NCBI GenBank assembly: GCA_013368445.1
Contig: JAACJO010000002.1
Coordinates: 930,001 to 994,000, forward strand
Length of the DNA stretch: 64,000 nt
Source of the DNA: Leucocoprinus leucothites
Taxonomy: Eukaryota > Basidiomycota > Agaricomycetes > Agaricales > Agaricaceae
Direction: 5' to 3'
This document shows positions 3,406 through 27,089 of the stretch, piece by piece; position 1 is the stretch's first letter; each line of letters opens with the position of its first letter. The translations under genes were made by a program, and so were the position numbers. The notes below the pieces were generated by a model. The model had not been told where the DNA came from. It searched no databases and worked only from the letters and a program-made list of their open reading frames with translations.

Positions 3406-5377
3406 ATGGCCATCCTTCCTGACGCTCAAAATGTCTTGATACAAAAGAGTCAGTTTGGCACTGACCAAACCATTCAAATTCAGAATAATATCTCAGCCGG
3501 TTCTAGTGGTAGGATTCACCCACGAAAAGCACCGTTAAATCCCTAATGACTTTTTAGGCATTGATGTATTGCTCCAGGCATCCTTCCCTGAAGCGACCCA
3601 CGATTCTAATATACGCCACCCACCGCCTCGGTGTTTTCCCGAGACGCGTACGCAGTACATTGAAGACATAACTCAATGGGTCGCCTCCCCTGTTGAGCGC
3701 GACCCACTGCCTATGTACTGGATGAAGGGACCGGCTGGTGTTGGCAAAACCGCCGTCGCTCAGACCTGCGCTGAAAAGTTCAAGGAGCTGAACCTTCTCG
3801 GTGCAGCTTTCTTCTTTTCCGTAAATGGGCGAGCCGACCATACACACTTCTTTCCCTCCGTCGCATATCAACTCTGTACGGAGCTCTCGGATTTTCGCCA
3901 GCTTCTTGACAACAAAATATCTCGCGACAAAACAATTGTTGGGAAAGCGATGGTCTGGCAATTCAAGAATCTGTTCTCCGAGTCGATCCAAGAGCTGCAG
4001 AGGATGGGTAAAAGTGTTCCAAGGAAGGCTATCATCATAGATGGGCTAGACGAGTGTCTCAGCAAAGAAGCGCAGTGCGAGATTATCGAGATTATCGCAG
4101 GGTCTGCGCGAGAATCCTCCACCCCTTTTTATTGGGCATTCTTCAGTCGCCCAGAAATGCACATTGAAACTACATTTGCCAAAAACGACATTGCTCCCCA
4201 TTGTCAACTTACAATCCTGCCAATTTCCCGCACCGCTGATAAAGATATTGAGCTGTACCTCAGAAGCGGGTTCGCTAACATCTTGTTGCGCCGAAATCTC
4301 TCGGTGTCCTCTCCATGGCCCTCTGAACGAGACATGAAGGCGCTTATCGAGGCATGTGCGGGACTCTTTATATACGCAGCGACATTACTTCGGTATGTCG
4401 ACCGTCCTGTCGCACAAGGGCCTATCGAGCAGCTGAACGCGGTCCTGGCGAGCTTGGGTGGCGCTTCTGGTACTGACGGATCGCCTTTCGCGGAGCTCGA
4501 TGCATTCTATACACTCATACTTCGACGGATTCCAACGGAGATCTTTCCCTCTGTCCGAGTTCTCCTCGGGGGCATGTTTCTTTATTCATTCCATCCTACA
4601 CTATTTTGGAGCGCGGTCCAGCTCAGTAATCAGCTGCGACTCTCGGAAATTCAGTTCAAGATCCTTTGTAGCGAACTCCGCGCGGTTCTGTGCTTTTATG
4701 ACCACGATGGACCTTATGACTATGGTCAGTCCATTACAACGATGTCTTCCCTGAGGCACGCCAGCTTCACAGACTTCGCACAAATACAGCAGAAGGCACG
4801 TATGTTAGGAGGTGTCATTACCCTCCACCATAAATCTTTCTGGGATTTCCTCCATGACCCGGCTCGCTCGGGTATATACTGCATTTCGACGCAAGAAATG
4901 TACAATCTCCTGTTTAGCCACTATCTCCAAGTTTGGGGTGATTGTCAGAGGTGCTTCAGCCTCCAAGCCCGGGCAAGTATTTATAATCATCAGGCTACTC
5001 GTTTCTAACTTCAATTCAATTTTCCAGACTCTGAACCCTTAGAGCTGTCATCCGAACCGCCCGTTCCACTTACCTGGCCTCAAACCGACGCTCTCGTGTC
5101 AGCATACAACTATTCTAGGCTGTTCAATATGACTGGAGTGATGCTGGGAACACTGTGTTTCCGTTATGCCCCGGATCCTGCCTTGGTGCGGGCACTTGCG
5201 AGGCTTGATCATCGTAAGCATATTCTCTGTCAAGTACTTGCCTTGCCGGACGGGTTTCCAATTGTCGTACATGGTTTGACTTACGATTGCGATATCATGG
5301 TTCGACGGGCTGGGAATGTTTTGATTCGTTGTATCCAACCATCGGGTTTCATAAATTCAATATCGAAAATTTCCTGA
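3406..5377 (+). CDS. NACHT-domain NTPase (fungal NLR-like/STAND protein)
   Basis: Nucleotide-switch protein of the STAND class expanded in agaricomycetes; relatives act in non-self recognition or programmed cell death, but the role here is unknown. Start ATG 3406 lies in ccaccATGG. Intron 3509-3557 joins SAGSSG to IDVLLQASFPEA. Exon 2 carries the family lead-in RCFPETRTQYIEDI, Walker A GPAGVGKT (about residue 92) and Walker B AIIIDGLDEC. Intron 4977-5027 (gtattt..ttccag) leads to a last clear exon ending at TGA 5375. YHKSFWDFLHDPARSG-type sequence (HHKSFWDFLHDP here) near the end of exon 2 is characteristic. No C-terminal WD40, TPR or ankyrin repeats are seen. The real C-terminus may lie further on: other open frames follow at 5436-5812. 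Confidence 0.85.
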
Positions 5378-9483: not shown

Positions 9484-12400
9484 ATGATGGACAAGTCTTC
9501 GCCACTGAAACCCAGAGCTGAAACTCGGAAGGATTGTCGGACTGACAGCAGAGCAAGCAAAAGGTGCGATCCACAGGTTGAATGGTCCTGAAGGTGTTGT
9601 ATGACTGATACTGACCTTTGACTGTGTCATTGGACCAGAATATATTGCTCAATGGGTCAATTGAGGAACCTCTGTACAAAGGAGAACTACAAGACCGTGA
9701 CCAAGGAGTAATGGTGGTAATCGTCTTTGACCATGCTGTAATGTTTACGAGGAAGAAGAATGAAAAGCGAGCCTATCTGAGTTTGTATGAAGAGGCGAGT
9801 CATATCTCTTTGATTTTCAGCCTACTTACCGATGAATATTTTAGCTAGTACCCCTTGAACTCCTCTCATTCTCTGTGACGCATCCCGGAAACGATAATAA
9901 CAGCCCTGATGAACTTCCTCCCAGTCGGCATAAACAGAGCGATAGAATGCATGATTCCAAAGAACCAGAGTGGATCATTTTTCGTTGCCTGGGCAAGAGT
10001 TCGTTTAGTCTAACGCTCCGTTCAAAGTCTTGGTCGGATCAACAAATGTTGATCGAGGCTATCTGGAAACAGCAGGCTTTGATCCAAAGAGAGACGGCAC
10101 TTTTCGAGCTCAATGAACTCAACCATGGCTATTTTTCATCATGGGACAAGGTTCACTCTGTGGCACCATTTGGTAAGCCCAAAGTATATTTCCGCATAAA
10201 ATATATTAATATATAACAATTCGCTAGATGCAGAGGGACCAAAAAAAATAGCGTATGGAGCTAATTCCGGCGTTCATATCATGGAGCTGGACATTGATAA
10301 GAGCCAGCCTGAGAAGCAGTTTCACCTGCCGGAGGTGTTGCAAATTGAAGTGCTCGAGGAATATGGGATATTACTGATCCTCAGTGGCAAGTCAATCTAG
10401 CTTATCACCTAAACCCTCCGAGTCTTTCACTTACCAGTCAGACTCAGAGCGGCAGGTAATAGCCTTCCCTGTGGACACTCTTAACACAAGGGACACTCCG
10501 GTGGAGCTGAAACATGGAAAACATCTGTCCCCGCATGCATCCTTCTTTAAATGTGGTACTTGCCTCGGCAAGACAATTGTGTGCATTGTCAGAGCAACCG
10601 ATCTTTCCAGTACCTTAAGATTAATGGAAGTGAATGTCCAGGCCTCCGGAAGGGTCAGTAAGATAGCGCAAGAAGACTTTTGGTCACTCAATGAAAATTT
10701 ACTGACATTATACAGGGTGTGTGGTTTTTTCATTTCTCAGGAGCATGTGTTCATCGCTGTAAACATAGGAGATTGAGCTGCCAGGTCGCATAACATCCGT
10801 TCACTTTTTACTCGATAGTCTATGCATGGGCTGGGCCGGTAACTATCTCAGTATCATGGATGTGGATTCAATTGCGATTCAAGAGTTATTGGATCCGACG
10901 GACACTGCATTGGATTTCGTATGGGTAGACAACTTAAACCCTCAGTCTGTGTACCAGCTACAGGCTGATTGTCTACTCTGCTACTCTGGTATGTTTGTTT
11001 TTTAAGGTGTTCGTACTAACAGACAGAACTCTGATGGTCCCGAACTCCAGAATTCGCTTTTTTCATCGACCATCGGGGACACAGGATAAAGAATGAATTT
11101 TTCATACAGTGGAAAGGAAGGCCTACCAGCTTTGGTAACGACTCTGCTCATATAACTGAAAGCGATTAAACTCAACCAAATGATTATAGCATTGTATAAA
11201 CCATATATTCTTGGGTTCGGGTCGGACTTGGTAGAGATATGGAGCCTTGATACCGGACGACTAGTGCAGGTCATACAGGGAAATCTGCGCCTGTTATATG
11301 CGACTCCGCGATCAACATCGACATCTCTGTTTGCATTGGACACTGGTGCATCTTTGAACACAATCTCTGAAAAAGAGAGGGTCGAGCATCAAGTCAACAA
11401 CCTACCAACTTCCGAGAGGCAGCCTGAAATCTATGTTAACTGTGATAGCTCGGTATTTTCATTGCGACTCAACCTTAAACAACGAGATCCTTCGTTGAAT
11501 TCCGGGTCACCGGGAATGGATTCTGACGGTGCCGCATGGCTTGAAAAATGCCAAGTAAGCCCAGAACAAACAGAACCTCTACTGGACGTCGAAAGTGTAG
11601 ATATTCAATCAGTGAGCCCATGCGTTCCCACTGATCCGTATAGTAGGACTCATGGAATGTTCAAGATGATAGAAACGCTATCAGATGTTCTAGTCTCTTC
11701 TGAGAGGAGAAAGAACCTGCAAAATTCTACTCAACAAGACGCTCAGATGCTCGTTGATTTCCTCTACTCTGTAAGTCATTGTAAACTGGGACCTTCCAAA
11801 AATCAATGTTTCATGGTAGCCTATTCATCGCAGCTGTTATCAACACCCGAGTATCTTGAAACTGCAGCTCCGTGGCTGCGCAAACACACGCTCATTGTCC
11901 TCCGTCGTATCTCTGAGGCCTCAGTTCTCTACCCACAATGTTATGTACTTAATGGTATCCAGACCAATTCCCAGGAAGGCGGAGGAGGCTTTTGTGATAT
12001 TTACAAGGGTCATTTCGAGGGTCAAGACATCTGTCTGAAGGTGGTAAGGTTGTACCAGAAGACGGAGACAAACAAAATGTTGAAGGTCAGGATCTACTCC
12101 CTCTTTCCTTCATACCTTTTCCCTTATGATGATTAGATGTATATACGAGAAGCGATATTGTGGGGCCAACTCCAGCATCCGAACATACTGCCTTTCTATG
12201 GTGTTTATTATTACAATCAGGAAAGGCAGAGAGCTTGCCTCGTGTCGCCGTGGATGCCCAATGGCAACATCGTGGCATATATAGAGAAGAATCCATATCT
12301 TCCACGTAACCAGTTTGTTAGTCCACAATTTCTCTGGATCTCTCATGATATCGTATGACAAATTCCCTAGATTCATGATATAGCAGCCGGCCTGTGCTAT

Positions 12401-13190
12401 TTGCACGATGAAAGCATTATTCACGGAGACCTTAAAGGGGTGAGTTTTGTAGGCTTGGGTGTTTGCTTGAAATAACCACTGACACTCGGTTGTAACAGGT
12501 CAACGTCCTTGTCAATGATTTGGGAAATGCCTGCATCGCAGACTTTGGGTTATCAACCATCAAAACCAACAATACGCTTGGATTTACGAGGACGACCGTT
12601 GCTTTTTCGGGTCGCTCAGACCGTTGGGCAGCCCCTGAGCTCCTTGAAGATGAGGTACAACCAAATAGTGCAACCGACATGTGGGCATTCGGATGCCTTT
12701 GTTTTGAAGTGAAGTCCAGGACATCTCTATCCGATTTTCTGTCTCTGATTAGGAGAGCACAGATTCTGACACGACTCCTGCCGTTTCATGAGTGCTCGAA
12801 AGACATCCATGTCATGTGGAAATTAATCAAGGGTGATAAACCTGCTCGTTTTGAGGATACCTTGAAACTGGATCCCATAGATAGGATCGATGTGGAAACT
12901 TGGAGTCTGATTAGCCGTTGTTGGACTTCCCCAGAAAGTCGACCATCTTGCCGAGAAGTTTTACAAGAGTTCGCTTTGATTGCGCCTCTTGCGAACCGCA
13001 ATTCGGACGATTCGGATATAGTCAATGATTTTTCGCGCAAGGTCCAGCAGTTTAGATCTGCAATGCGCAACAGCTCAAGTATACCGATTGATCTAGCTCA
13101 CATTCAGGGGGTGCTCAAAAGGGTGTGTGACTGACATTTTGCCTAGCTACTCTGACGGACTACTAACCCTGGGTGTCCTTACAGACATGA
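9484..13190 (+). CDS. Gene A: PH-CNH-protein kinase fusion (no DH domain)
   Basis: Composite signalling protein. After a tentative start (ATG 9484) and an intron ending ggaccag at 9639, a Rho1-GEF-type PH segment is seen (LYKGELQDRD, VIVFDHAVMFTRKK). A CNH domain runs to about 11300 (ERQVIAFPVDTLNTRD; SFFKCGTCLGKTIVCIVRA; YILGFGSDLVEIWSLDTG; QVIQGNLRLL). A polar linker leads to a kinase domain (about 11770-13070): glycine loop GGGGFCDIYKG, lysine in ICLKVVRL, catalytic loop IIHGDLKGVN, IADFGLS, RWAAPELL and WAFGCLCFE. The PH and CNH match genes B and C, and the kinase matches gene C. No DH exchange domain lies in front. The end is either VCD at 13134 or, with a last intron (gtgtgt..cttacag), at TGA 13188-13190. 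The N-terminus is unresolved. Confidence 0.75.
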
Positions 13191-14252
13191 GCTCACTGTG
13201 ATTAAATGTATCAAAGATATACTGCGATTGTCCAGTCTGAAACTGGAGTGTAGCCGTCTAGTCCTACTAGTAGTAGACTGACCCTGGGGGGAGGAAATCA
13301 CTCCTGATTCTCTTTGCCAATAAATTATCTATGGACTTTGAACAGCATGACAGATTCACGAGGACAATGATCCAGGACGACGTCTTGGGGATCAGGTTGT
13401 TATTTCTATGGGACTTTTGAAGATTTTTTGGGTAGGGCGGTGCAGTGGAACGATTTATTTTTGTGAGGCACCAATGCCACACAGAACACGGCCGGAAGGG
13501 GAAGAATCTGAGGAGGAAGAGCCAGCTCTCCCTCTTTAGTCGTATTGGGCCTCGTGTGAACGTGTCTTCAAGCACATTTGTGATATGAAGCCCCACGTCA
13601 AGGGTGCTCAGCGGGTCTTGGCCCTCTGAGAGGTGGAATCAGTTTCAGAGGCGCCTGAGTATTTAGTCCTGTCTTTGTTAGGTGGAGTCGATCGTTAGGT
13701 TCACCGATAGGAGAAGGTAGTGTTTAGATCCCAGCTTGGAGGCGATGTACTATCTTCCAGTATTTCGTGTTCGCTCAAAGAGAAAATGCCAGTGCGAGAG
13801 TGAGGTAGGAGAATAGGGCTTAGAATCGGTGAGGACGACAGATGTGATCGGTAGACGTGGAGCAACGGTGTTATCGTAGAAGGCGTCCATGCGATGCTTT
13901 CTGTGCTAGCACGGGCTGAGTGATGGACTAGCGAATTTTTAGGACGGATTCTCCACGCGAGTGGGGTTAGGATGCGAACAAGAACGACGTCAGGCAAGAC
14001 CTAGAATAGCACGTCCCTCGGCCAGAAGAGGGTTGGACCTACTGAGAGGTCGCACGAAGGCTAATGTCAACCGGGTGACCGCCGTTCAGTGACTGTGGCG
14101 CATGAGGGAAAATGACGGTGGTGGAGGTGGGTGGCTGGAAAGTGGTAGCTGAAACTGAGTGCAGAGTGGAATGATCGTGGGTGACATGACTTGATTTAGT
14201 CGGTTGACTTGTTCTGATCAGAGACTCCCACCTCGCACGTCGCCCGCCCGCC
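13191..14252. other. Intergenic region upstream of Rho1 GEF gene B
   Basis: About 1.06 kb between the gene A stop and the gene B start. No coding frame carries a recognisable product; minus-strand open frames at 13267-13596 and 13701-13997 lack motifs and splice structure. Presumed terminator of A and promoter of B. Confidence 0.5.
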
Positions 14253-17200
14253 ATGGACCGCCCCATGGGCCCGCGCCAGCCACCCGACAAGCGCCATGCA
14301 GCTGCCTACGAAGCCATCTTCCACGGCCGCCCTGGTCCAAACCACCATGTCTCTTCACAGAGCTTCCCACACTATTCTCCTCCCCACAACTCACCTCCCG
14401 GTTTTCTCATTCCTCAGCATCTTCAGCAGCCTCCCGACAGGCGCACATCCCTTGGTTCTTTCTCGTCAGGCTACTCACACAATAGTCACCACCTTCCCCA
14501 GCAGCAGCAGCTTCCCCCTGGCACGTACAGACAATCTTACTACCCTCCTCCGCCCCACATTCCCCAACATCTCCCTCCCCCAGGACCATATGACCCTCAC
14601 CCACCAGCACAGTACTCTCATCCCCCACCCGGACAACCCAGGGCTCGATCCTTTATCAGTAGCTCCCATTCCCCCGGTATTATTGCTACCCAGCCGGACG
14701 AACCACCAGATCCCAATTCTCATGGCCTCACTCCCGCACAAGCCTACCAGGCCGAGATCTTCAACAACGGTGCTGCTGCCCCACCCCCAGAGTGGAATCG
14801 CTATCGCACGTCCCCTGCCCCACCCGACCGCAGTCCGAATGCTCAACCCCACTCCCAACTCAGCAATCCTCCCAGGCTCGGAATCAATCTTGACCAGGAC
14901 GACGGACGCCTTGGAATCGACTTTGCGGGTGGCAACAGCGGTAATGATTCAAGTGATGAGGGGAGCAGCGAGTTACCATGGGCAAGAAACGAGCGCACAG
15001 GTACGACTTGTGTCTTTTCATCCTCCTGAAAGCTTGTTTTGAAGACGGCTTTTCTTCAAGGCCAAGACAGACCACGATCATCCTACAATCAGTATTCATC
15101 TGTGTGTAACATTCCTGCTGTCCAACCATCTTGGCTTTAGGCCGCCTAACCTTCTTTCCCTTCCCCTTTTAGACCACTTTGCACGTCGACACCAATGCCG
15201 CTGCCTTGTCCATCCGTTCATCAATAGCAAGCGTCTCTCCCATTTCGTCAGCTCCAGACACATCTGTCACACAACCTGATCAGTTGGCCTCTTCTCTTTT
15301 CGCTTCTCGTCGATCTTCCGACTCTACACGGACTATGCCCAAGTTGGCAACTCCCCATCGCCAACGTTCCACTCAAGAACGTTCAATGTCCATGTCAGCC
15401 GCTACCGGCCTTTCCATCTCTCCATCCTCTCGAACACAGATTGAACAAAAACGAAGTATGCGACCGTTTCCTTCCCTTGGAGGCAGTGGTAGAAATTCAC
15501 CTAATCCACCGGTAGCTCAACCTAGACAACGAAAAACCCCCGTTGTCTATCCTGCTTTGCTGTCTCGTGTCGCTGAAGCTTTCAGGGACCGGATACCTTT
15601 GGGTGACCGCTTTAAAGATGGGTTGACGTACAAGGAAGCTTTCGATGGGCGAGAGGCCGTAGACAAGATTGCGTATATAATCAAGACCACCGATAGAAAT
15701 CTGGCGCTGCTGTTGGGAAGAGCGTTGGATGCACAGAAATTCTTTCATGATGTGACGTACGATCATAGACTGAGGGACAGCTCGAGCGAGCTGTACCAGT
15801 TCAGGACGAGTTTAGGACCATATGTGAGCGGGGAGTTGGCTGCCGAGCTGCGGAATGGCGACGAGGTGCGTTCTTGTTCTGTGTACTGAACGTAGCGGGA
15901 CTCACCAATAGTATAGGCTGTGTCGCCGGTGAACGCAACTCCGCCGGAAGAAATGCAGGAGCTCGAGGAAATTCCTCTTCCATCCGGAGTGTTCACCCTC
16001 CTCACAGACTGCTATTCACCGACATGTTCAAGGGATCAACTATGTTACAGCATAGCCTGCCCACGACGGCTAGAACAGCAAGCTAGGCTGAACATGAAGC
16101 CTCAACCAGGGCTATCCAAGCAGATCAGCAAAGAGAGCTTGATTGACCTTCCTGTGCGTTTGCTGTCACTACTTTTATCAGGCTGATAGGTCCTCGTTTG
16201 ATGTCATGCCATTTTTGTATAGGAGGTTGGCACGTTATGGGTTCATTCGGTCCCCCAAGAGATTGTCAATAGCGTATCTGATACGGAGAAGAAGAGGCAG
16301 GAGGCTATCAATGAAGTTATTTATACGGAACGTGATTTCGTGAGGGATTTAGAGTATCTCCGGGATGTCAGTGTCTCCTTTGTCTTCACGCTCTTCTTTT
16401 CCTCACTTATGCTAGACATGGATGACACGCCTCCAAGAATCTGAGGTCATACCACCCGAAAGACGAAAGGCATTCATCCAACAAGTATTCTGGAATGTTC
16501 GGGAAATTCTGGCAGTTAATACACGACTTCGTGACGCGCTCAGTAAAAGGCAAAAATCGTATGCGGTCGTGGATCGGATTGGTGACATTTTTTTGGAGCA
16601 TGTGCCTCATTTCGGTCCTTTCGTCGCGTATGGCGCGCATCAGCTTTATGGAAAGTACGAGTTCGAAAGGGAAAAGGGGCAGAATCCGGCCTTTTCTGCA
16701 TTTGTCGACGTATGTCTTCGTTCCTTGACTTAATGCCACTAGCTAATAGTGATTTCGTAGGCTACTGAACGTCTCCCAGACTCGCGGAAACTCGAACTCA
16801 ATGCCTTTCTCACAAAACCCACAACCCGTCTCGCACGATACCCACTTCTCCTCGAAACCGTACTTAAGCACACACCCGACGACAGTTCCGACAAAACGGT
16901 GATACCAAAAGTAATCGCCAAAGTCAAAGAATTCCTGGCGAGTGTGAATACGGAGAGTGGTAAGACGGAGAATAGGTTTAATTTGATGCAGCTGGATGGA
17001 CAGTTATTGTTTAAGCCTGGGGAGGAGGTGGATTTGAGATTGAAGGAGCCGGGGAGGGAGCTGATTTATAAAGCGGCGTTGCAGAAGAGGGATGGGGAGA
17101 TTTTGGTGTATTTGTTCGATCATGCGATTTTGTTTACGAAGAGTATGCATAAGAAGCATCATCATGAGAGTTTGAGGGTTTATAGAAGGGTGAGCGCATC

Positions 17201-19207
17201 CTTGTTTATTTCCTGAGAGGTAATGCTGATGATTTGGGTCTGGTAGCCGATCCCACTCGAGTTGTTGTATATTACCTTTTCCGACGATCTCTCACCTGCA
17301 AACGGTACCGTCCGCTCTCGAAAACAAACTGGCCTCGTCCGACGGTCTTCCTTTTCTCGAGACTTTTCACCTTCCCTTTCCTCCCACCCTGGTAACAGTA
17401 TCAGTACCAACGGTGGCGGCGCTAGTGGGTCTACTACCACATCACACAACTATCTATCTAAATCCTCGGGCGCCTATAATGTACCCACACCAACAAGGAA
17501 CGAAGCCAAGGGACAATATTGGATACAGTTTCAGTATTTGGGGAGGAAGGCGTATACTTTATTGTTGTGGGCGAACTCAATAATGAGTCAGAAGAAGTGG
17601 GTAGAGAGCATTCAGAAGCAGCAGGTTGCGATGAGGGAGAGGAGTCGGTATTTTGAAGAGGTGGTGTTGAGCGAGGGGTTTTTCAGTGGGCCGAATAAGG
17701 TCAACTGTGCGGCGCCTTTTAGTGAGTGATGGCTCTTCCTTTTCTTTGGTCTTTTTGTTGATTGGTTTGGATTTGCAGGTCATGGGAGGAGAGTTGTGTA
17801 TGGGACGGATGACGGTGTTTATATTTCGGATTTGAGAGAGCCGAATAGGGAGCCTGTGAAAGTCCTTTCATTGCTGGAAGTTTCGCAGGTGGATGTGTTG
17901 GAGGAGTATCAATTGTTGATCGTCCTCTCTGGTACGTTCTTCACTCCCCGCTCATTTCACCGACTGACCTATCTCCCCTGCAGAACGCCAAGTAATAACA
18001 TTCCCACTCGACGCGCTGGACCCTCGAGATCCAATGGCAGGATTAAAGAGAGCCAAAAGGATATCCTCGCACACGTCATTTTTCAAGGCTGGATTTTGTC
18101 TGGGAAGGGTGTTGGTGTGCATTGTGAAATCGAGTCAGTTGTCGAGTACGTTCAAGGCGCTGGAACCGATTGATCAGAATGTGAGGGGGAGGAGTAAGCC
18201 GACGTTTAGGAAGCTGCTGCAGGGTGGGAACGATACTTTGAAGCCCTTCCGCGTGAGTTGTCTCACTCGATCTTGTTCGCCTTTGTTATAACTGAATATG
18301 GGATGGGCAATGTAGGAATTTTATATTCCGGTAGAGTCGACGTCGATTCATTATCTCAAGACCAAGATGTGTGTTGGGTGTTCGAGAGGGTTTGAGATTG
18401 TGGATTTGGAGACGCTGGAGACGCAGGGGTTGTTGGATCCTGAGGATGAGACGTTGGAGTTTGTGAGGAAGAGAGAGAACTTGAGGCCGATGGCGTTGTA
18501 TAGGATTCAGAATAAGTTTTTGCTTTGTTATGATGGTGCGTCTTTACTGCTTTGTGCGCTGCGGATCTTCGGTGGCTGATTTACTTTTTTGTAGAGTTTG
18601 CGTTTTATGTGAATAAGAGCGGGCAGAGGGCCAGGAGTGAGTTTATGGTGTTTTGGGAGGGCCAGCCGACTGGTTTTGGTACGTCATTGAATTTTCGTAG
18701 TGTTATTTTGTTATGAGCTGACGCGCTCGACCTCCAGCGCTACATGAACCTTATATCCTCGCCTTCGAGCCCAACTTTGTCGAGATTCGACATATCGAGA
18801 CGGGTTACCTAGCACAGGTCATCCAAGGATCGAATCTCCGTCTCCTCTTCGCCGATACACCACCAACCTCGGGAGTACCACCGCCAAAGGGTATGATGCC
18901 TCCTCAAGCCATGGGTATGCCACCGTACGGTGGTGGTGCATATCCGCATGGGCAGATGCCGCCGTATCATCAAGGGTATGGGAGGGTGCCACCACATCAA
19001 CAGCAGCAACAGCCGTATGAAGGTAGGGACGAGATTTTGGTTGTTTCGGATGATAGGGTGTTTGCGTTGAAGCCTGTTGCTTCTGCTGCTGCTGCTTCTG
19101 CGAATCTGGCGGGGTCGGTTGAGGGGAGTAGTCAGAGTTCGCATACGGTTTTTTCGGATGGGGGTAGTGTTGCTACTGGATCGTCGTGGACGATGACACC
19201 CCGGTGA
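14253..19207 (+). CDS. ROM2: Gene B: Rom2-type Rho1 guanine nucleotide exchange factor (DEP-DH-PH-CNH)
   Basis: Activates Rho1 at the plasma membrane in the cell-wall integrity pathway. Order: a Pro/Gln/Ser-rich N-terminus of about 250 residues; an intron (about 15000-15173); a Ser-rich stretch; a DEP domain (GLTYKEAFDGREAVDKI..YQFR, about 15620-15805); a linker ending QISKESLIDLP; DH (EAINEVIYTERDFVRDLEYL, FGPFVAYGAHQLYGKY, KPTTRLARYPLLLETVLKHT); PH (LIYKAALQKRDGEILVYLFD); CNH (YGTDDGVYISDLREP; VITFPLDALDPRDP; SFFKAGFCLGRVLVCIVKSS; YILAFEPNFVEI). The tail is Gln/Pro-rich, with EGRDEILVVSDDRVFAL. Introns such as 17190-17246 fit GT-AG. TGA is at 19205-19207. This is the conventional, complete architecture and the reference for genes A and C. 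Confidence 0.93.
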
Positions 19208-19230
19208 TGAGTTTGTTGGGTTTTTTTTCG
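16121..19230 (+). repeat. Tandem-duplicated DH-PH-CNH block, copy in gene B
   Basis: From the codons for QISKESLIDLP to just beyond the stop, this stretch matches about 23418-26505 nearly base for base, introns included. The PH segment (16899-17216) differs from the other copy by one amino acid. Upstream of 16121 the two copies are unrelated. Confidence 0.92.
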
Positions 19231-20029
19231 TTAATTTTCTGTTGTTGTTTTCGTTGATGTTGTACGCTGATGTTTGTTTCATGATCTGTTGTTGTCGTAT
19301 ATAATATCGTTCAATCTCAATGAGAGCTGGTTTGGTTGGTTTTTGTGTTGATATTATCTTCGGCTTTTCTTTTCTTTTTTCGTTTCATCTTGTTTTCTTT
19401 TTCTCGTTGTTTTTAAGTAGGTCAACAACGGCTTATTGATGATTTCGGTTTCTCTCATGCAGTGACCGCAGGTATTGAGGGTCGTTTGCAATCGGGTTTT
19501 GAGCAAACGAATTCTGTGGAAAAGTCCCCGCTTGGCCCACTACCCCTTTTACAATGCCGTACAAATCATGCCAAATAGGGACGTCTGACGACCTTTGCCT
19601 TGAGAATCAACACAACGATGGTCGTATTCTTCTGGGTCGCTCGCACTGGTTATAACTAAGTTTACAGCCTTCTTCGCTGGGTGCGGTGTCTACTGAGACC
19701 TTTTCAAACTCCTTAAAAATCAAGCTCGGGATGCAAGTGAGCTGCGCCTCGTAATTTCCCCATTTTGCCCCACACTTTAGAGCGCATTTACGACTAGAGA
19801 ACTCCAAGGTGGTTGAACAAGAGGACTTTAAATACCCCCCGTCTTGATACCTTTCAAAACACCGCCCTCTTATAGGTCCTATGCGCCATACACTTGTATC
19901 ACTATGTACTCAATCCATCTGGGAACGATGCCTCGATTTTGTCTCGTGTGCCTACCCCTCCTCAGTCACTGACCACGTCTTCTACGTCCTGCCTATCGCT
20001 CAAGCGGAAGCCAACAGCACTGGAACGTA
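19208..20029. other. Intergenic region after Rho1 GEF gene B
   Basis: Starts with a T-rich 3' UTR (runs such as ttttttttcg). A possible first exon of the next small gene lies around 19894-20010 on + but could not be joined with confidence. Nothing else recognised. Confidence 0.4.
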
Positions 20030-20860
20030 GCCCAAGAATGCTAACAAGGAAGATGAAGGCCCATATCAACGTCCTTGCTTCACGGGGAAAGATCCCATCC
20101 TCCTTGCTCATGCTATAGATCAAGATGAGTCCTTCCTCGGAAGACATGGAGAAATTTCAGCGACGTGGAAGATGTATGAGGAGATACGTGAGAGTGGGTT
20201 CAAGCACGAGGAGGTATCGCCCCAGACTGTTTGGGAAAATGCACATGGGCTGGGTCATTATTGCAAGGTATTTGTGTTTGAGTCATTTCATCACCTAGTT
20301 GACCTTGTTCCCTTTAGGATTCTATGTTGCAGAAGAGTGAAGTCAAGGCCATCGCTCGTAAATTCGACGAGAGTGAAACTAGTCGGATCGACACCACACA
20401 ATATGACGAGGGAACAAATAAATCCGAGGAAAAGAAGAAACGGGTGCTCGAGGTAGGTAACTTATGTATAACTTCATCATTTCCTTGGTTCACTGTTTTA
20501 CAGAAGGGTGAAGAAGATCGTGCTGGGGGTGAAGCCATTCGTCGTTTGGCTGTCATCAACGTGGAACGCAAACGCGCACGCCTCGAGAATGACGCCACCG
20601 CCACCACCGCTTGTGAACATCGACGTTTATTGATTCAATGCAATGCTGATTTTGCTATCATCCCCGATATCGCATATAATGACTTCAATGGCATCCCTGC
20701 CGATGCGCCCACTCCCGCTTCACAAGAGTCAGTAGCCACACCTGTCGCACCTCAAGGCTCCCAATCACCAACCCCTCTTGTTCTTCAACACCCGAAGACA
20801 ACGAGCCGCGACCCTCGAGGTGTCGCCGACTCACTCGCGGGGTGCTGGGCGAGGATATGA
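20030..20860 (+). CDS. Hypothetical protein between GEF genes B and C (5' end unresolved)
   Basis: Not recognised. Three exons join cleanly in one frame: 20030-20267 (NANKEDEGPYQRPCF, then ISATWKMYEEIRESGF), 20318-20452 (DSMLQKSEVKAIARKF, then SEEKKKRVLE) and 20504-20860 (KGEEDRAGGEAIRRL, then a Pro/Ser/Thr-rich tail). Introns 20268-20317 (gtattt..cctttag) and 20453-20503 (gtaggt..tttacag) are 50-51 bases. The first exon has an acceptor (gaacgtag) just before it, so an upstream exon with the start codon is missing from this model. The ATW-xx-MYEEI region followed by a charged helix is only loosely like SANT/Myb-type DNA-binding proteins; I do not assign it. It is unrelated to the GEF and kinase modules on both sides. 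Confidence 0.5.
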
Positions 20861-21261
20861 ATGATGAAATTGTTCAGCTCACGAGGCAGGATATTGAACT
20901 TCGTGCACAACAGCAAGCAGAAATTCCGACACACTTGAGGGCCTCAAGAATGCGGCCGCTCAGCACTTAGCCGAGGTCATGGACAAGCTAGTAGAAAGGC
21001 TCTAGTAAATTGCCTTCTGTGTCGGTTTATTAACATATTATATGATCATAACTGTCATGCAATTTAGTGCACAGGTTTCTCCTCAGGTTAAAGCTCAAGC
21101 TACTGAATCTTTTCTACAGGTGCTTGGCAGTTTGAATGCGCGTATCATCATCGTGGGAGGCGATGCCAGATGAACAGGTGTAAGGCCACGTGTGGAAATT
21201 CCTATCTCATTGAAACACCTTGTCATAGTCCGTATCAAACCTCTTCCTCTTCGATTTTTTT
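20861..21261. other. Intergenic region upstream of kinase-GEF gene C
   Basis: No coding motif on either strand up to ATG 21262. A minus-strand open frame (21207-21458) overlaps the first exon of gene C and has no recognisable product. Confidence 0.4.
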
Positions 21262-24200
21262 ATGTCGAAAGAACCAGATGCATACCAATCCTTCGTGAAT
21301 TTGGAAGTAGGAGGAACACACATAGTAAAATCAGGGCCATCAAGTAAAGCGAAGTTGGGGGTGATCTCATGGGCTTTTCTGACTCGTAATTTCCAGGAGA
21401 ACATAGAGCTCAGGCGGCCAGGCTGCTCGGTTCTGTGGGTGACGGGTCGAGACGGCAACTTGGTTTTGAGAAAGAACTTCCCACACTTCCTGACACCATT
21501 GATTCCCCACCTTTCCCTCCATATTCAGATGCACTCAGACAGCCCCCCGGTGAGTATTTGTCAATCCTGCCAGCTCCACCATATGTAATTTTTACTGAAC
21601 CAGGAACAGAAGAATACCGAGATCGAAACGATGACGACTTGGATATCATCGTGCTGCCGCGCACAAGCCACTCACGCGAACGACAATCAACTCCAGTGCC
21701 CGTAAATAGAGGGTATTCTTCTCAAAAGTCCTTGATTTCGCATGCTGTTCCTTGGAATGAGACAGATGCGCAGCTGGCAGAGGTAAGGGCCCAAGAGAAA
21801 CGATAGTGTATTCGTATCTTGACCTCCGTGCTCTCAGGTTTTAGGCACCCTCTCGAGGATTTTGAGCATTCGGGAGAAGAGAAATGCCCTACTTGGTATT
21901 AGATCTGATCGTGCCCAGTTACTCGTTGACTTTCTGGATTATGTCAGTATCCGTCTCATGTACTCTTACTGTTATGATATCGGTGCTGATTTTATTTTTA
22001 CCACTGGTAGTTGCTTTCACTTCCCAACTACCCTCAATCAACTCCAGCTTGGCTTCACAAACATGCCTTCATCACTCTCCGAAAACTTTGCGAGAAGACG
22101 ATGTTGTATCCGCAATGCTATTTTTTGGGTAATATTGAATTTGAATCACAAGAAGACGGAGGGGGGTTTTGTGATATTCACAAAGGACGATATAGCGGAC
22201 AAATCCTCTGCCTGAAGGTTGTGCGACTATACCAAAGGTCAGACACGGATAAGTTACTCAAAGTCTGTCCTGGATTTTATCAGCAAAAAACCATTAAATC
22301 TGATTCCACCACTCGGTTATCAGCTATTTTCCCGAGAAGCGATTCTATGGGGCCAACTTCATCATCCAAACATATTGCCTTTCTATGGTATTTATTATCT
22401 CAACGAAGCCAAGAGACGTATTTGCCTCGTGTCCCCTTGGATGGAAAACGGTAACATTGTCGTCTACCTGAAAAAGTACACTCAGGTTCCTCGTAAACCG
22501 CTCGTTAGTGCAATATCATTACAGCCCCTTCATCACGCTCATATCTAGTTTCTATCCACTAGATCTGCGATGTCGCGAGGGGGCTCAGCTATTTACACGC
22601 CGAAAACATCATCCATGGTGATCTCAAAGGGGTAATTTCCTTTTCTTCAATCTGAAGTATGTGTATCGCTGAGAAAAGGTTCCAGCTCAATGTACTCGTC
22701 AGTAGCTCTGGTAGAGCCTCTATAACCGACTTCGGATTGTCGACAGTCAGGACGAACAAGACACTTGGTATGACAGTCACGGCAAGTGAATTCAGAGGCC
22801 ATACGAATCGATGGGCGGCACCTGAACTCATGGACGATGACTCCCGCTCAACCTGCGAAAGCGACATCTGGGCCTTTGGCTGCGTTTGTTATGAGGCTCG
22901 TCTTCCGTCACTATGTTTGCGGCAACACTTAGTAATTTGATCATAGATTCTGACAGGACTACAGCCATTCCACGATTGCTCTAATGACTCCCAAGTCATT
23001 CGAAAGCTCATTCAAGGAATCCCGCCAGCTCAATTGAATAGTGTCGGAACTCCAGCCTCATTGTTTAGCATCGATAAAATCATGCAGTCTATTATTTCCA
23101 ACTGCTGGAATTCCAAGCCCAAGGATCGGCCTTCCTGCGCAAAGGTGCTTCGGGAGCTCGAGGCACTCGATTTCACCGAGCCCTCTTCAATAGGTCTTGC
23201 GGAAACCCCCTTGCATGAAGGGGTTTCCTCTGCACACTCATACCAGAGATTTCGAGAGGCCATGAGACGGCACTCTGGCGTGAGTATCGCACTATATCAA
23301 GTACAGGAAATTCTCAAGGGGCTCCATGGACCTCCCAATCATGGGGCGACTGACTCGGATGACCCGATACAAGAGGATTCGAAGGAAGACTTAGAGCTCA
23401 TGCGAGCTGTAGGCCATCAGATCAGCAGAGAGAGCTTGATTGACCTTCCTGTGCGTTTGTTGCTACTACTTCTATCTCTTCGCGTTATCGCGCCTATGGG
23501 TCTCCCCTCATTTGATGTCATGCCATTTTTATACAGGAGGTTGGCACGTTATGGGTTCATTCGGTCCCTCAGGAGATTGTCAACAGCGTATCTGAGACTG
23601 AGAAGAAGAGGCAGGAGGCTATCAACGAAGTTATTTATACTGAGCGTGATTTCGTGAGGGATTTAGAATATCTCCGGGATGTGAGTGTCTCCTTTGTCTT
23701 CATGCTCCCCTTTCCCTCATCTCTACTAGACATGGATGATACGTCTCCAAGAATCTGAAGTCATACCACCCGAAAGACGAAAGGCATTCATCCAACGAGT
23801 ATTTTTGAACGTTCGGGAGATTCTGGCGGTTAATACACGACTTCACGACGCACTGAGTAAAAGACAAAAATCGTATGCGGTCCTGGATCGGATTGGTGAT
23901 ATCTTTTTGGAGCATGTTCCTCATTTCGGTCCGTTTGTCACGTATGGTGCGCATCAGCTGTATGGAAAGTATGAGTTTGAGAGGGAAAAGGAGCAGAATC
24001 CGGCCTTTTCTGCATTTGTCGACGTATGTCTTCGTTCCTTGACTGAATGCCACTAGCTAATAGTGATTTCGTAGGCTACTGAACGTCTCCCAGACTCGCG
24101 GAAACTCGAACTCAATGCCTTCCTCACAAAACCCACAACCCGTCTCGCACAATACCCGCTTCTCCTCGAAACCGTACTCAAACACACCCCTGACAACAGT

Positions 24201-26355
24201 TCCGACAAAACGGTGATACCAAAAGTAATCGCCAAAGTCAAAGAATTCCTGGCGAGTGCCAACACGGAGAGCGGTAAGACGGAGAACAGGTTTAATTTGA
24301 TGCAGCTGGATGGACAGTTGTTGTTTAAGCCTGGGGAGGAGGTGGATTTGAGGTTGAAGGAGCCGGGGAGGGAGCTGATTTATAAAGCGGCGTTGCAGAA
24401 GAGGGATGGGGAGATTTTGGTGTATTTGTTCGATCATGCGATTTTGTTTACGAAGAGTATGCATAAGAAGCATCATCATGAGAGTTTGAGGGTTTATAGA
24501 AGGGTGAGCGCATCCTTGTTTATTTCCTGAGAGGTAATGCTGATGATTTGGGTCTGGTAGCCGATCCCACTTGAGTTGTTGTATATTACCTTTTCCGACG
24601 ATCTCTCACCTGCAAACGGTACCGTCCGTTCTCGAAAACAAACAGGCCTCGTTCGACGGTCTTCCTTCTCTCGAGATTTTTCACCCTCCCTTTCCTCCCA
24701 CCCTGGTAACAGCATCAGTACCAACGGTGGCGGCGCTAGTGGATCTACTACCACATCACACAACTATCTATCTAAACCCTCGGGCGCCTATAATGTACCC
24801 ACACCAACGAGGAACGAAGCCAAGGGGCAGTATTGGATACAGTTTCAGTATTTGGGGAGGAAGGCGTATACTTTATTGTTGTGGGCGAACTCAATAATGA
24901 GTCAGAAGAAGTGGGTGGAGAGTATTCAGAAGCAGCGGGTTGCGATGAGGGAGAAGAGCAGGTATTTTGAAGAGGTGGTGTTGAGCGAGGGGTTTTTCAG
25001 TGGTCCGAACAAGGTTAATTGTGCGGCGCCTTTTAGTGAGTGATGGTCATTCCCTTTTTTGGTCTTTTTGTTAATTGGTTTTGGAATCCGCAGGTCATGG
25101 GAGGAGAGTTGTATATGGGACGGATGATGGTGTTTATATTTCGGATTTAAGAGAGCCGAATAGGGAGCCTGTGAAGGTACTTTCGCTGCTGGAAGTTTCG
25201 CAGGTGGATGTGTTGGAGGAGTATCAACTGCTAATCGTTCTCTCTGGTATGTTCTTTCATTCCCCTTCAATTCATCCACTGACCTATCTCCCTACAGAAC
25301 GCCAAGTAATAACATTCCCACTCGATGCGCTGGACCCTCGAGACCCAATGGCAGGATTAAAGAGAGCCAAAAGGATATCCTCGCACACGTCATTTTTCAA
25401 GGCTGGATTTTGTCTGGGAAGGGTGTTGGTGTGTATCGTGAAGTCGAGTCAGCTGTCGAGTACGTTCAAGGCGCTGGAGCCGATTGATCAGAATGTGAGA
25501 GGGAGGAGTAAGCCGACGTTTAGAAAGTTGTTGCAGGGTGGGAATGATACTTTGAAGCCCTTCCGCGTGAGTTGTTTAATTTAATCTTATTCATTATGAC
25601 TGAATGAGATGGGTGGATTGTAGGAATTTTATATTCCGATAGAGTCGACATTGATTCATTATCTCGAGACAAAGATGTGTGTTGGGGGTTCGTGGGGGTT
25701 CGAGATCGTGGATTTGGAGACGCTGGAGATGAAGGGATTGTTGGATCTTGAGGATGAGTCATTGAAGTTTTTGAGGAAGAGGGAGAATTTGAGGCCGGTG
25801 GCGTTGTATGAGATTCAGGATGTGTTCTTGCTTTGCTATGATGGTGCATTTGTACTATTCTGTGTGCTGTGGATTCTTGGTGGCTGACTTGGCCTTTTTT
25901 TTTTTTTGAAGAATTTGCGTTTTATGTCAATAAGAGTGGGCAAAGAACTAGGGATGAGTTTATGGTGTTTTGGGAGGGTCAACCTACTGGTTTTGGTGTG
26001 CTTTTTTTTTTTTTACCCTTGGTATGAGCTGACGTGTTCGACCATAGCACTACATGAACCTTATATTCTCGCGTTCGAGCCCAACTTTGTCGAGATCCGA
26101 CATATCGAGACAGGTTATCTAGCACAGGTCATCCAGGGATCAAATCTCCGTCTGCTTTTCGCCGATACGCCACCAACGTCGGGAATACCACCGCCAAAGG
26201 GTATGATACCACGTCAGCAACCAGATGGCAATGGTGTATATCCACATAGGCAAATGCCACCACATCAACAGCAGCTACATGAAGGTAGAGATGAGATTTT
26301 GGTTGTTTCGGATGATAAAGTGTTTGCGTTGAAGCCTGCTGCGACTGTGACTTAA
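21262..26355 (+). CDS. Gene C: protein kinase-DH-PH-CNH fusion (kinase-linked Rho GEF)
   Basis: Start MSKEPDAYQSF; intron 21344-21396 (gtaaag..ttccag) joins GPS to REHRAQAARLL, followed by a Pro/Asp-rich linker. Kinase domain about 22010-23200: GGGFCDIHKGRYSG, ICLKVVRLYQ, REAILWGQLHHPNILPF, IIHGDLKG then LNVLV across an intron, ITDFGLS, RWAAPELM, WAFGCVCYE. The exon encoding the kinase C-lobe runs without a stop through QVQEILKGLHG and into QISRESLIDLP, then splices into the DH domain exactly as gene B does (EVGTLWVHSVPQEIV). DH, PH and CNH are near-identical to gene B. There is no proline-rich N-terminus and no DEP domain. One kinase intron (22896-22946) appears to use a GC donor. The CDS ends early at TAA 26353-26355, in place of the Ala/Ser-rich tail of gene B. 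Confidence 0.83.
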
Positions 26356-26505
26356 GCGTGACCAGTTGAGGGTAATGGTCAGAGTCCGCATCCGGTTTTT
26401 TCGGATAGGGGTAGTGCTGCCACTAAATCATCGCGGGCGATGATATCTCGGTAATGATGAATATCGGTGAGGATTTGTGTGTATAGTGCTTGTTGGGTTT
26501 TTTTG
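23418..26505 (+). repeat. Tandem-duplicated DH-PH-CNH block, copy in gene C
   Basis: Second copy of the block at 16121-19230. Exon order, intron positions and intron sequence are retained; the intron at 24504-24560 appears identical to 17190-17246. Differences cluster at the two ends, above all in the last 600 bases. Confidence 0.92.
26356..26460 (+). pseudogene. Decayed former coding tail of gene C
   Basis: After the early stop at 26353 the sequence still matches the last coding part of gene B (19108-19210): tcagagt-cgcat-cggttttttcggat, then the gtagtg-tgc-act and cgatga blocks. It is no longer read because the upstream change put a TAA in frame and an Ala-rich stretch was lost. Confidence 0.7.
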
Positions 26506-27089
26506 TAGCCTGTATTGCTTGTTGGTGTTGTTCAACTTATAATCTGTTAGTGGCACATATTTGTTATATTTTTGGTTTCTTCCTCAATTTTGTTTTTGGT
26601 GGTTTATAGTCTTGAACTACTGCGTATTACACCGTGCCGCAAAGCACATTGTCATTCCATGAGCAAATCTGTAGCACTTGATATCCAGGTTTTTTTGGGG
26701 TATTTCTTTTTAGGCCCGTTAGGTGCTGGGTACGCCGTTGTAAGTTCTTAGTGTGTATACAAGGTTTTCTTTGAGTCATACGTACACCAAACTGGTGACG
26801 CGATCTGTGGCTTAAAAACGAAAGCCCGAAGAAGGTTCATAGAAAAAACGAAAATAGTGATGCCAGTAATTTTCAAGCTCATACTAAGGGAAAGAATGAT
26901 TACAAATGGCGCATTAAAAGGAGAAGAGCAGAGATATGGTTGTTGCGAGGGTACAACTTAGAGACGATGATAGTATATGTATGATCATTCGTCCATGTGT
27001 AATATGCATCTATGTGTATCTATAATTAAAGCTATTTGTTAATATTTGTCGGCCGTACAACGAAACACTTTACACCTTCTCACACATCC
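26461..27089. other. Intergenic region after gene C
   Basis: The first about 45 bases still resemble the 3' UTR of gene B (cttgttgggttttttt). The remainder is AT-rich with no recognisable gene. Confidence 0.4.

Follow-up and report, generated by a model that had tools for sequence, protein, structure and literature searches.

A stretch of 64,000 nucleotides from the basidiomycete Leucocoprinus leucothites, hereafter the window (contig C2:930001-994000, within a 47-Mb genome of 110 contigs), raises the question of whether a protein kinase and a Rho1 guanine nucleotide exchange factor (GEF) are encoded there by one gene, and what each half of such a protein would do. The gene concerned, gene C, lies on the forward strand downstream of two related genes, A and B. 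Its spliced model runs from an ATG at 21262 to a TAA at 26355, the same bounds as in the first-pass annotation of this DNA, through 1369 codons without a stop or frameshift, and contains 17 introns of 49-86 nucleotides each, 16 of which are GT-AG. That annotation had proposed a domain search of the spliced protein as a check, and Pfam gives kinase-RhoGEF-PH_5-CNH, with all four domains far over the cut-off: the kinase scores 137.8 bits as PK_Tyr_Ser-Thr and 137.3 bits as Pkinase, followed by RhoGEF at 130.8, PH_5 at 104.2 and CNH at 237 bits. In this model, kinase and RhoGEF thus fall within one open reading frame after splicing, and the order RhoGEF-PH_5-CNH is that of a Rom2-type Rho1 GEF. 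Judged from its sequence, gene C is a real chimeric gene, composed of the following parts.

21262..26355, forward strand: full coding region of gene C, 18 exons, 1369 amino acids, kinase-RhoGEF-PH_5-CNH (spliced model and Pfam)
21262..21782, forward strand: N-terminal part without a Pfam domain, amino acids 1-138
21838..22157, forward strand: pre-kinase region, 37 of 83 amino acids identical to the counterpart of the gene A kinase
22158..23159, forward strand: TKL-type kinase domain, amino acids 223-481
22896..22946, forward strand: intron inside the kinase, GC-AG if spliced as in gene A
22947..23450, forward strand: junction exon, with kinase C-lobe, tail, linker and, as its final 11 codons, B-type sequence (QISRESLIDLP)
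23618..24263, forward strand: RhoGEF (DH) domain, amino acids 606-787, Pfam
24150..24152, forward strand: codon 750, Q where the conserved basic residue of conserved region 3 (CR3) is expected, R in gene B
24375..24938, forward strand: PH_5 domain, amino acids 825-993, Pfam
25099..26157, forward strand: CNH domain, amino acids 1028-1304, Pfam

The kinase and junction motifs first picked out by the annotation are all present and in frame. Read by eye, the kinase keeps the K, E, HGD, DFG and APE motifs, HGD replacing HRD, a feature shared with gene A, and the DH domain keeps the glutamate of conserved region 1 (CR1). Four GC-AG introns were recognized by homology, two in gene A (9795-9844 and 10387-10447), one in gene C (22896-22946) and one in a further gene, D, considered below (L034 7092-7041). 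For the intron of gene C, an alternative GT-AG pair, with the donor shifted by +4 and the acceptor by +10 bases, also keeps the frame (read by eye).

The GEF part of gene C has its source a short way upstream.

14253..19207, forward strand: gene B, Rom2 type, DEP-RhoGEF-PH_5-CNH (Pfam), source of the copied block; the first intron of its model is tentative
23418..26457, forward strand: block common to genes C and B, matching 16121-19210 at the DNA level with 87.7% identity, introns counted

This DNA match spans 3122 columns: it begins mid-exon, with the last 33 bases of the junction exon, and extends slightly beyond the stop codon of gene B. A DNA search of the genome itself with 23400-26500 returned two places, genes B and C. 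Ten exons and nine introns pair one to one between the two genes, the first of these exons being common only in its last 33 bases, which bears out the earlier claim that the DH of gene C is laid out as in gene B. Moreover, the CNH of gene C has Rom2 (5o51, E 5.3e-96) as its best solved relative, in agreement with the Rom2-type ancestry ascribed to this part from the outset. The alignment shows that Rom2-like gene B has been copied in part into gene C, where the stretch from QIS to the stop lies in frame behind a predicted TKL kinase. Compared with the Rom2/Rgf-type Rho1 GEF that gene B represents, gene C has the same DH-PH_5-CNH module and exon layout, with 94% protein identity over the block, but it lacks the proline-rich part and the DEP domain, carries a kinase in front, and has Gln in place of the CR3 Arg. 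Pfam finds a DEP domain before the DH in gene B and none in the spliced gene C protein, so that the kinase does stand in place of the proline-rich/DEP half, as had been suggested.

Is this join a single accident of the genome? Two further genes carry parts of a Rho GEF together with a kinase.

L034 3866-7297 (C8:1206001-1216000), reverse strand: gene D, RhoGEF-helical region-kinase (model and Pfam)
9639..13134, forward strand: gene A, PH_5-CNH-kinase, in reversed order, upstream of B and C (Pfam)
11190..11770, forward strand: gene A exon, free of stops throughout, that links the CNH end to the kinase pre-region (gene model)

Gene D combines in one model a RhoGEF domain (96.5 bits, Pfam) and a kinase (148.3 bits) of the same family as that of gene C. 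Its exon 6634-5210 (1425 nucleotides) covers the DH end and the middle region and reaches, as read by eye, into the start of the kinase pre-region. About 5 kb away, on the other strand, lies its twin, gene E (L035), with the same DH and middle and a different low-complexity tail; tblastn with A and C found no kinase beside gene E within the 10 kb examined. D and E share 303 of 375 amino acids, with a synonymous divergence (dS) of 0.58 and a ratio of non-synonymous to synonymous divergence (dN/dS) of 0.18, and their DNA matches at 83.6% over 1942 columns. The helical middle of both genes appears BAR-like by eye, and Pfam gives no BAR match there. These comparisons indicate that this kinase family has twice acquired the copy of a resident RhoGEF gene, in two events on separate contigs, with the GEF behind the kinase in C and in front of it in D, and that the join in gene D arose separately from that in gene C.

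Gene A (PH_5 43, CNH 178 and kinase 128 bits in Pfam) is, by its domain content, a third join of a GEF-derived part to this kinase family. Its PH-CNH part is an old copy, since only 187 of 447 amino acids are identical to gene B. The RhoGEF search was empty from the stop of the preceding gene (9160) to the PH exon, and no start codon could be assigned to the gene A model. Other regulators served as controls for whether such a kinase lies beside any regulator: among the kinase matches listed, a kinase lies within 3 kb at 2 of 18 RhoGEF loci (C and D), at none of 12 RhoGAP and 4 RasGAP loci, and at one of 7 RasGEF loci (L069, whose kinase appears in one of the two kinase lists used); these counts were made by eye and are rough.

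The question of which half acts as the enzyme turns on the CR3 helix of the DH domain, which reads TRLARYPLLL in gene B and TRLAQYPLLL in gene C (R750Q). A hidden Markov model of CR3, for which eight copies served (C and D among them), was used to scan 16 RhoGEF loci and window positions 14001-27000 in all frames. Sixteen rows above threshold cover the column in question. All 14 unfused copies carry K or R there (B, E, two each in L031, L032 and L033, and one each in L036, L060, L061, L063, L067 and L068, a further L068 row stopping short of the column), whereas the residue is Q in gene C and T in gene D, the two copies fused to a kinase, a split expected in 1 of 120 cases by a one-sided Fisher test calculated by hand. 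Among the solved DH proteins listed, the top five of each search, intersectin 1 and 2 carry R at this position, and XPLN, NET1, P-Rex2, ARHGEF11 and Vav carry K. We take this position to be that of the GTPase-contacting residues Vav K335 and Tiam1 K1195. The substitution K335A renders Vav dead, and K1195A weakens Tiam1.

The reading that we put forward, with a confidence just short of even, is that of a blunted Rho-GEF module that steers the kinase to which it is joined; the GEF part would exchange poorly and the kinase would be the output. The main role of the GEF part of gene C would be to recruit the kinase to Rho1 and to the cell cortex. Its DH domain, being mostly conserved, would still bind Rho but would exchange nucleotide poorly, since the basic CR3 residue is gone, while the PH domain would bind the membrane and the CNH domain the partners of Rom2. 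The kinase may then phosphorylate partners at the sites of action of Rho1 and the cell-wall-integrity pathway, or compete there with gene B. The same design would apply to gene D, with its changed CR3, and to gene A, in which no DH was found. The first-pass annotation had envisaged an enzyme that could couple an upstream phosphorylation step to Rho1 activation, a coupling made doubtful by the loss of the basic CR3 residue in gene C.

Several points weigh against a blunted exchange domain. The effect of R750Q on exchange is one that we infer, and ECT2 presumably lacks a basic residue at this position and yet is active. Only gene D provides an independent test, because the site was picked on seeing gene C, and in the DH of D as many as 20 of 105 compared positions differ from E, so that a change at CR3 by chance is possible. 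Furthermore, some of the 14 unfused copies are closely related to one another, and five loci (L059, L062, L064, L065 and L066) had no row above threshold and are uncounted. The DH domains of B and C are otherwise conserved (172 of 182 amino acids, dN/dS 0.08), as expected if the DH of gene C still exchanges nucleotide.

These objections lead to the alternative that survives best, a possible but rather unlikely active kinase-GEF, in which the kinase, through autophosphorylation or an upstream cue, would gate a functional Rho1 exchange domain within the same polypeptide. Such a protein would account for DH, PH and CNH domains conserved under selection, for the CR1 glutamate kept (by eye) in the DH, and for a Pfam RhoGEF score of 130.8 in C against 132.9 in B. 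It is harder to reconcile with a basic CR3 residue that has changed in C and, independently, in D, and with a gene A that joins a GEF-derived part to the kinase with no DH found. A broader proposal, to which we assign a low probability, is that the expanded TKL family repeatedly captures copies of Rho-pathway regulators, disables the enzyme site, keeps the binding surfaces under selection and employs the captured parts as built-in baits or Rho1 sensors. Their disturbance, e.g., by an invader acting on Rho1, would then fire the kinase, and genes C, D and A would be likened to plant kinase fusion receptors, as their fungal counterpart; further candidates could be L049, with its kinase-TKL frame, and L069, where a kinase neighbours a RasGEF.

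The junction exon is open to 23450 and is then spliced to the DH exon at 23537. It had been described as a single open exon at 23034-23460; it does remain open past the end of the kinase (23159) into QISRESLIDLP, whereas its bounds are 22947-23450. The 255 nucleotides from the end of the kinase to the block (23160-23414) stay open in 399 of 20000 base shuffles (2%) and contain 5 and 3 stops in their two other frames. Their first ~160 nucleotides are probably the kinase's own tail, since gene A (14 of 53 identical) and two kinases on contig C6 can be aligned weakly up to residues 533-535. The truly new linker therefore comes to ~31 codons, and since these last 93 nucleotides before the copied block are open in 4997 of 20000 shuffles (25%), the openness of the linker alone is not remarkable.

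It is improbable that two transcripts arise here, either from an internal promoter with a Met start in the linker or with the kinase ending in a retained intron after 23450. A Met does stand 17 codons before the junction splice (MRAVGHQIS), and with the intron retained the frame is open to 23657. The copied GEF block, however, starts mid-exon, without the start region of gene B, and offers no ATG of its own from 23418 to the DH core; moreover, the linker is open in frame, and the joins in A and D fall inside single exons.

Has the copied part been maintained since it was joined to the kinase? Selection is a stronger argument against chance here than the open linker. Over 803 aligned B/C codons, of which 754 encode identical amino acids, a Nei-Gojobori script gave 132 synonymous and 54 non-synonymous differences (dS 0.298, dN 0.029, ratio 0.099), the ratio being 0.079 in the DH, 0.038 in the PH, 0.088 in the CNH and 0.209 in the tail. 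Free drift was simulated in 500 runs, in which mutation events were counted. With 66 synonymous changes placed on C, i.e., half of the total, the runs accumulated on average 193 non-synonymous changes (never fewer than 118) and ~10 stops each, and none of the 500 was free of stops; when 30 synonymous changes were placed instead, the average fell to 89 and the minimum to 44, and 5 of 500 runs were stop-free. The block of gene C has at most 54 non-synonymous changes and zero stops, against a drift expectation of at least 118 and ~10 stops. Being far below simulated drift and free of stops, the copied module has been maintained by selection and in use since copying.

The block has not evolved evenly. 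B/C dS ranges from 0.135 in the PH to 0.59 in the tail, and the introns 24024-24074 and 24504-24560 match gene B at 50 of 51 and 57 of 57 positions, while all nine introns together match at 431 of 493. A uniform age of the copied block was therefore rejected, and the uneven dS together with the near-identical introns points to gene conversion between B and C, visible as a patch at 24024-24560 amid more diverged flanks. Of the 17 B/C differences in the CNH, polarized with Rom2 (5o51) as outsider, 8 changed in C, 1 in B and 8 were unresolved; with gene A as outsider, 5 B/C differences fell to C, none to B and 22 were unresolved. By this polarity, gene C is the derived, faster-changing copy relative to B. 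In the kinase half, A and C are identical at 151 of 259 positions with synonymous sites saturated, and since there is no close relative, selection on this half is visible only over the long run.

A chimera in the course of becoming a pseudogene is accordingly a very unlikely description of gene C. The faster change in the CNH (8 against 1), the CNH score of 237 in C against 252 in B, and one weak GC-AG intron could be read as decay; that single intron is not alarming because genes A and D have such introns too. A dN/dS of 0.10 in the copied part speaks against a pseudogene, with dS at 0.14-0.59 along the block, as do the 1369 codons without a stop or frameshift and a simulated drift whose non-synonymous changes and stops far exceed those observed. 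An assembly chimera, misjoining a kinase gene and a GEF gene, is scarcely credible, given that the C block is 12% different from B, introns included, that the switch occurs mid-exon and in frame, and that a separate kinase-RhoGEF join exists on another contig in gene D.

The kinase half comes from a large family. Its best solved match is B-Raf (E 1.1e-31), and at least 185 exon-level matches to this TKL-type family were found in the genome, a lower bound with 115 of 467 candidates scored. Members have a pre-kinase region, kinase and tail as in gene C, with identities to it over the positions compared of 57% for gene A and up to 61% for others, but gene C has an entire GEF module behind the tail. 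Expanded TKL kinase families are common in Agaricomycetes, and few functions are known for them in mushroom-forming fungi. A FastTree kinase tree of 34 rows, three of which repeat a locus or contig already included, places A, C and their three partners in one clade (0.975), within which A groups with two kinases at C2:1.30 Mb (support 0.91) and C, weakly, with one C6 kinase, L044_785 (support 0.36). The tree, which separates their partners, gives no support for a direct sister relation of the A and C kinases through descent from a single kinase-GEF ancestor.

Joins of RhoGEF and kinase are known from animals, and the one in gene C appears to have been made anew from fungal parts. BCR has a kinase region in front of DH-PH, as in gene C, but it is metazoan, lacks a CNH and carries another sort of kinase. 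Trio, Kalirin and obscurin likewise hold a RhoGEF and a kinase in one chain, in the GEF-first order of gene D; in contrast to gene C, they have Spectrin, SH3 or Ig parts, no CNH and a kinase of another family. Citron kinase and MAP4K combine kinase and CNH in one chain, as in gene C, and citron also has a PH, but both lack a RhoGEF, and citron is a Rho effector rather than an exchange factor. Since the C block copies the unfused gene B, the join in gene C would be separate from those of Trio, Kalirin and BCR, as drawn from the B/C comparison rather than from metazoan sequences. At least two joins in one genome (C and D), with the GEF part under selection, would tie the TKL family to Rho1 and the cortex, and they pose a direct question: does the kinase need Rho1, or does the GEF need the kinase? 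The same residue changed in C and D yields a sharp prediction as to which half is the enzyme.

Partner domains of other kinases were sought by eye in frames of at least 160 amino acids at 16 loci, L049 alone being checked with Pfam. At L049 (C6:2085500-2089000), a 520-amino-acid frame on the minus strand has a kinase C-lobe running into a TKL pre-region, resembling a tandem kinase fusion; the C-lobe is a Pkinase by Pfam, and Pat1/Ran1-like is a label given by eye. At L069 (C5:2271601-2274700), a kinase C-lobe is followed ~1.2 kb on, on the same strand, by a RasGEF domain, with frame-compatible splice pairs between them, a possible kinase-RasGEF fusion. Among the unfused loci, L031, L032 and L033 (C2:704-736 kb) show a DEP-region match and then two RhoGEF matches in tandem, with a CNH behind them in L031 and L033, which may be DEP-DH-DH-PH-CNH genes. 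Finally, a NACHT-like P-loop frame lies near the locus at window positions 3539-5008, and NACHT-like frames stand beside tandem TKL kinases at L038, both named by eye.

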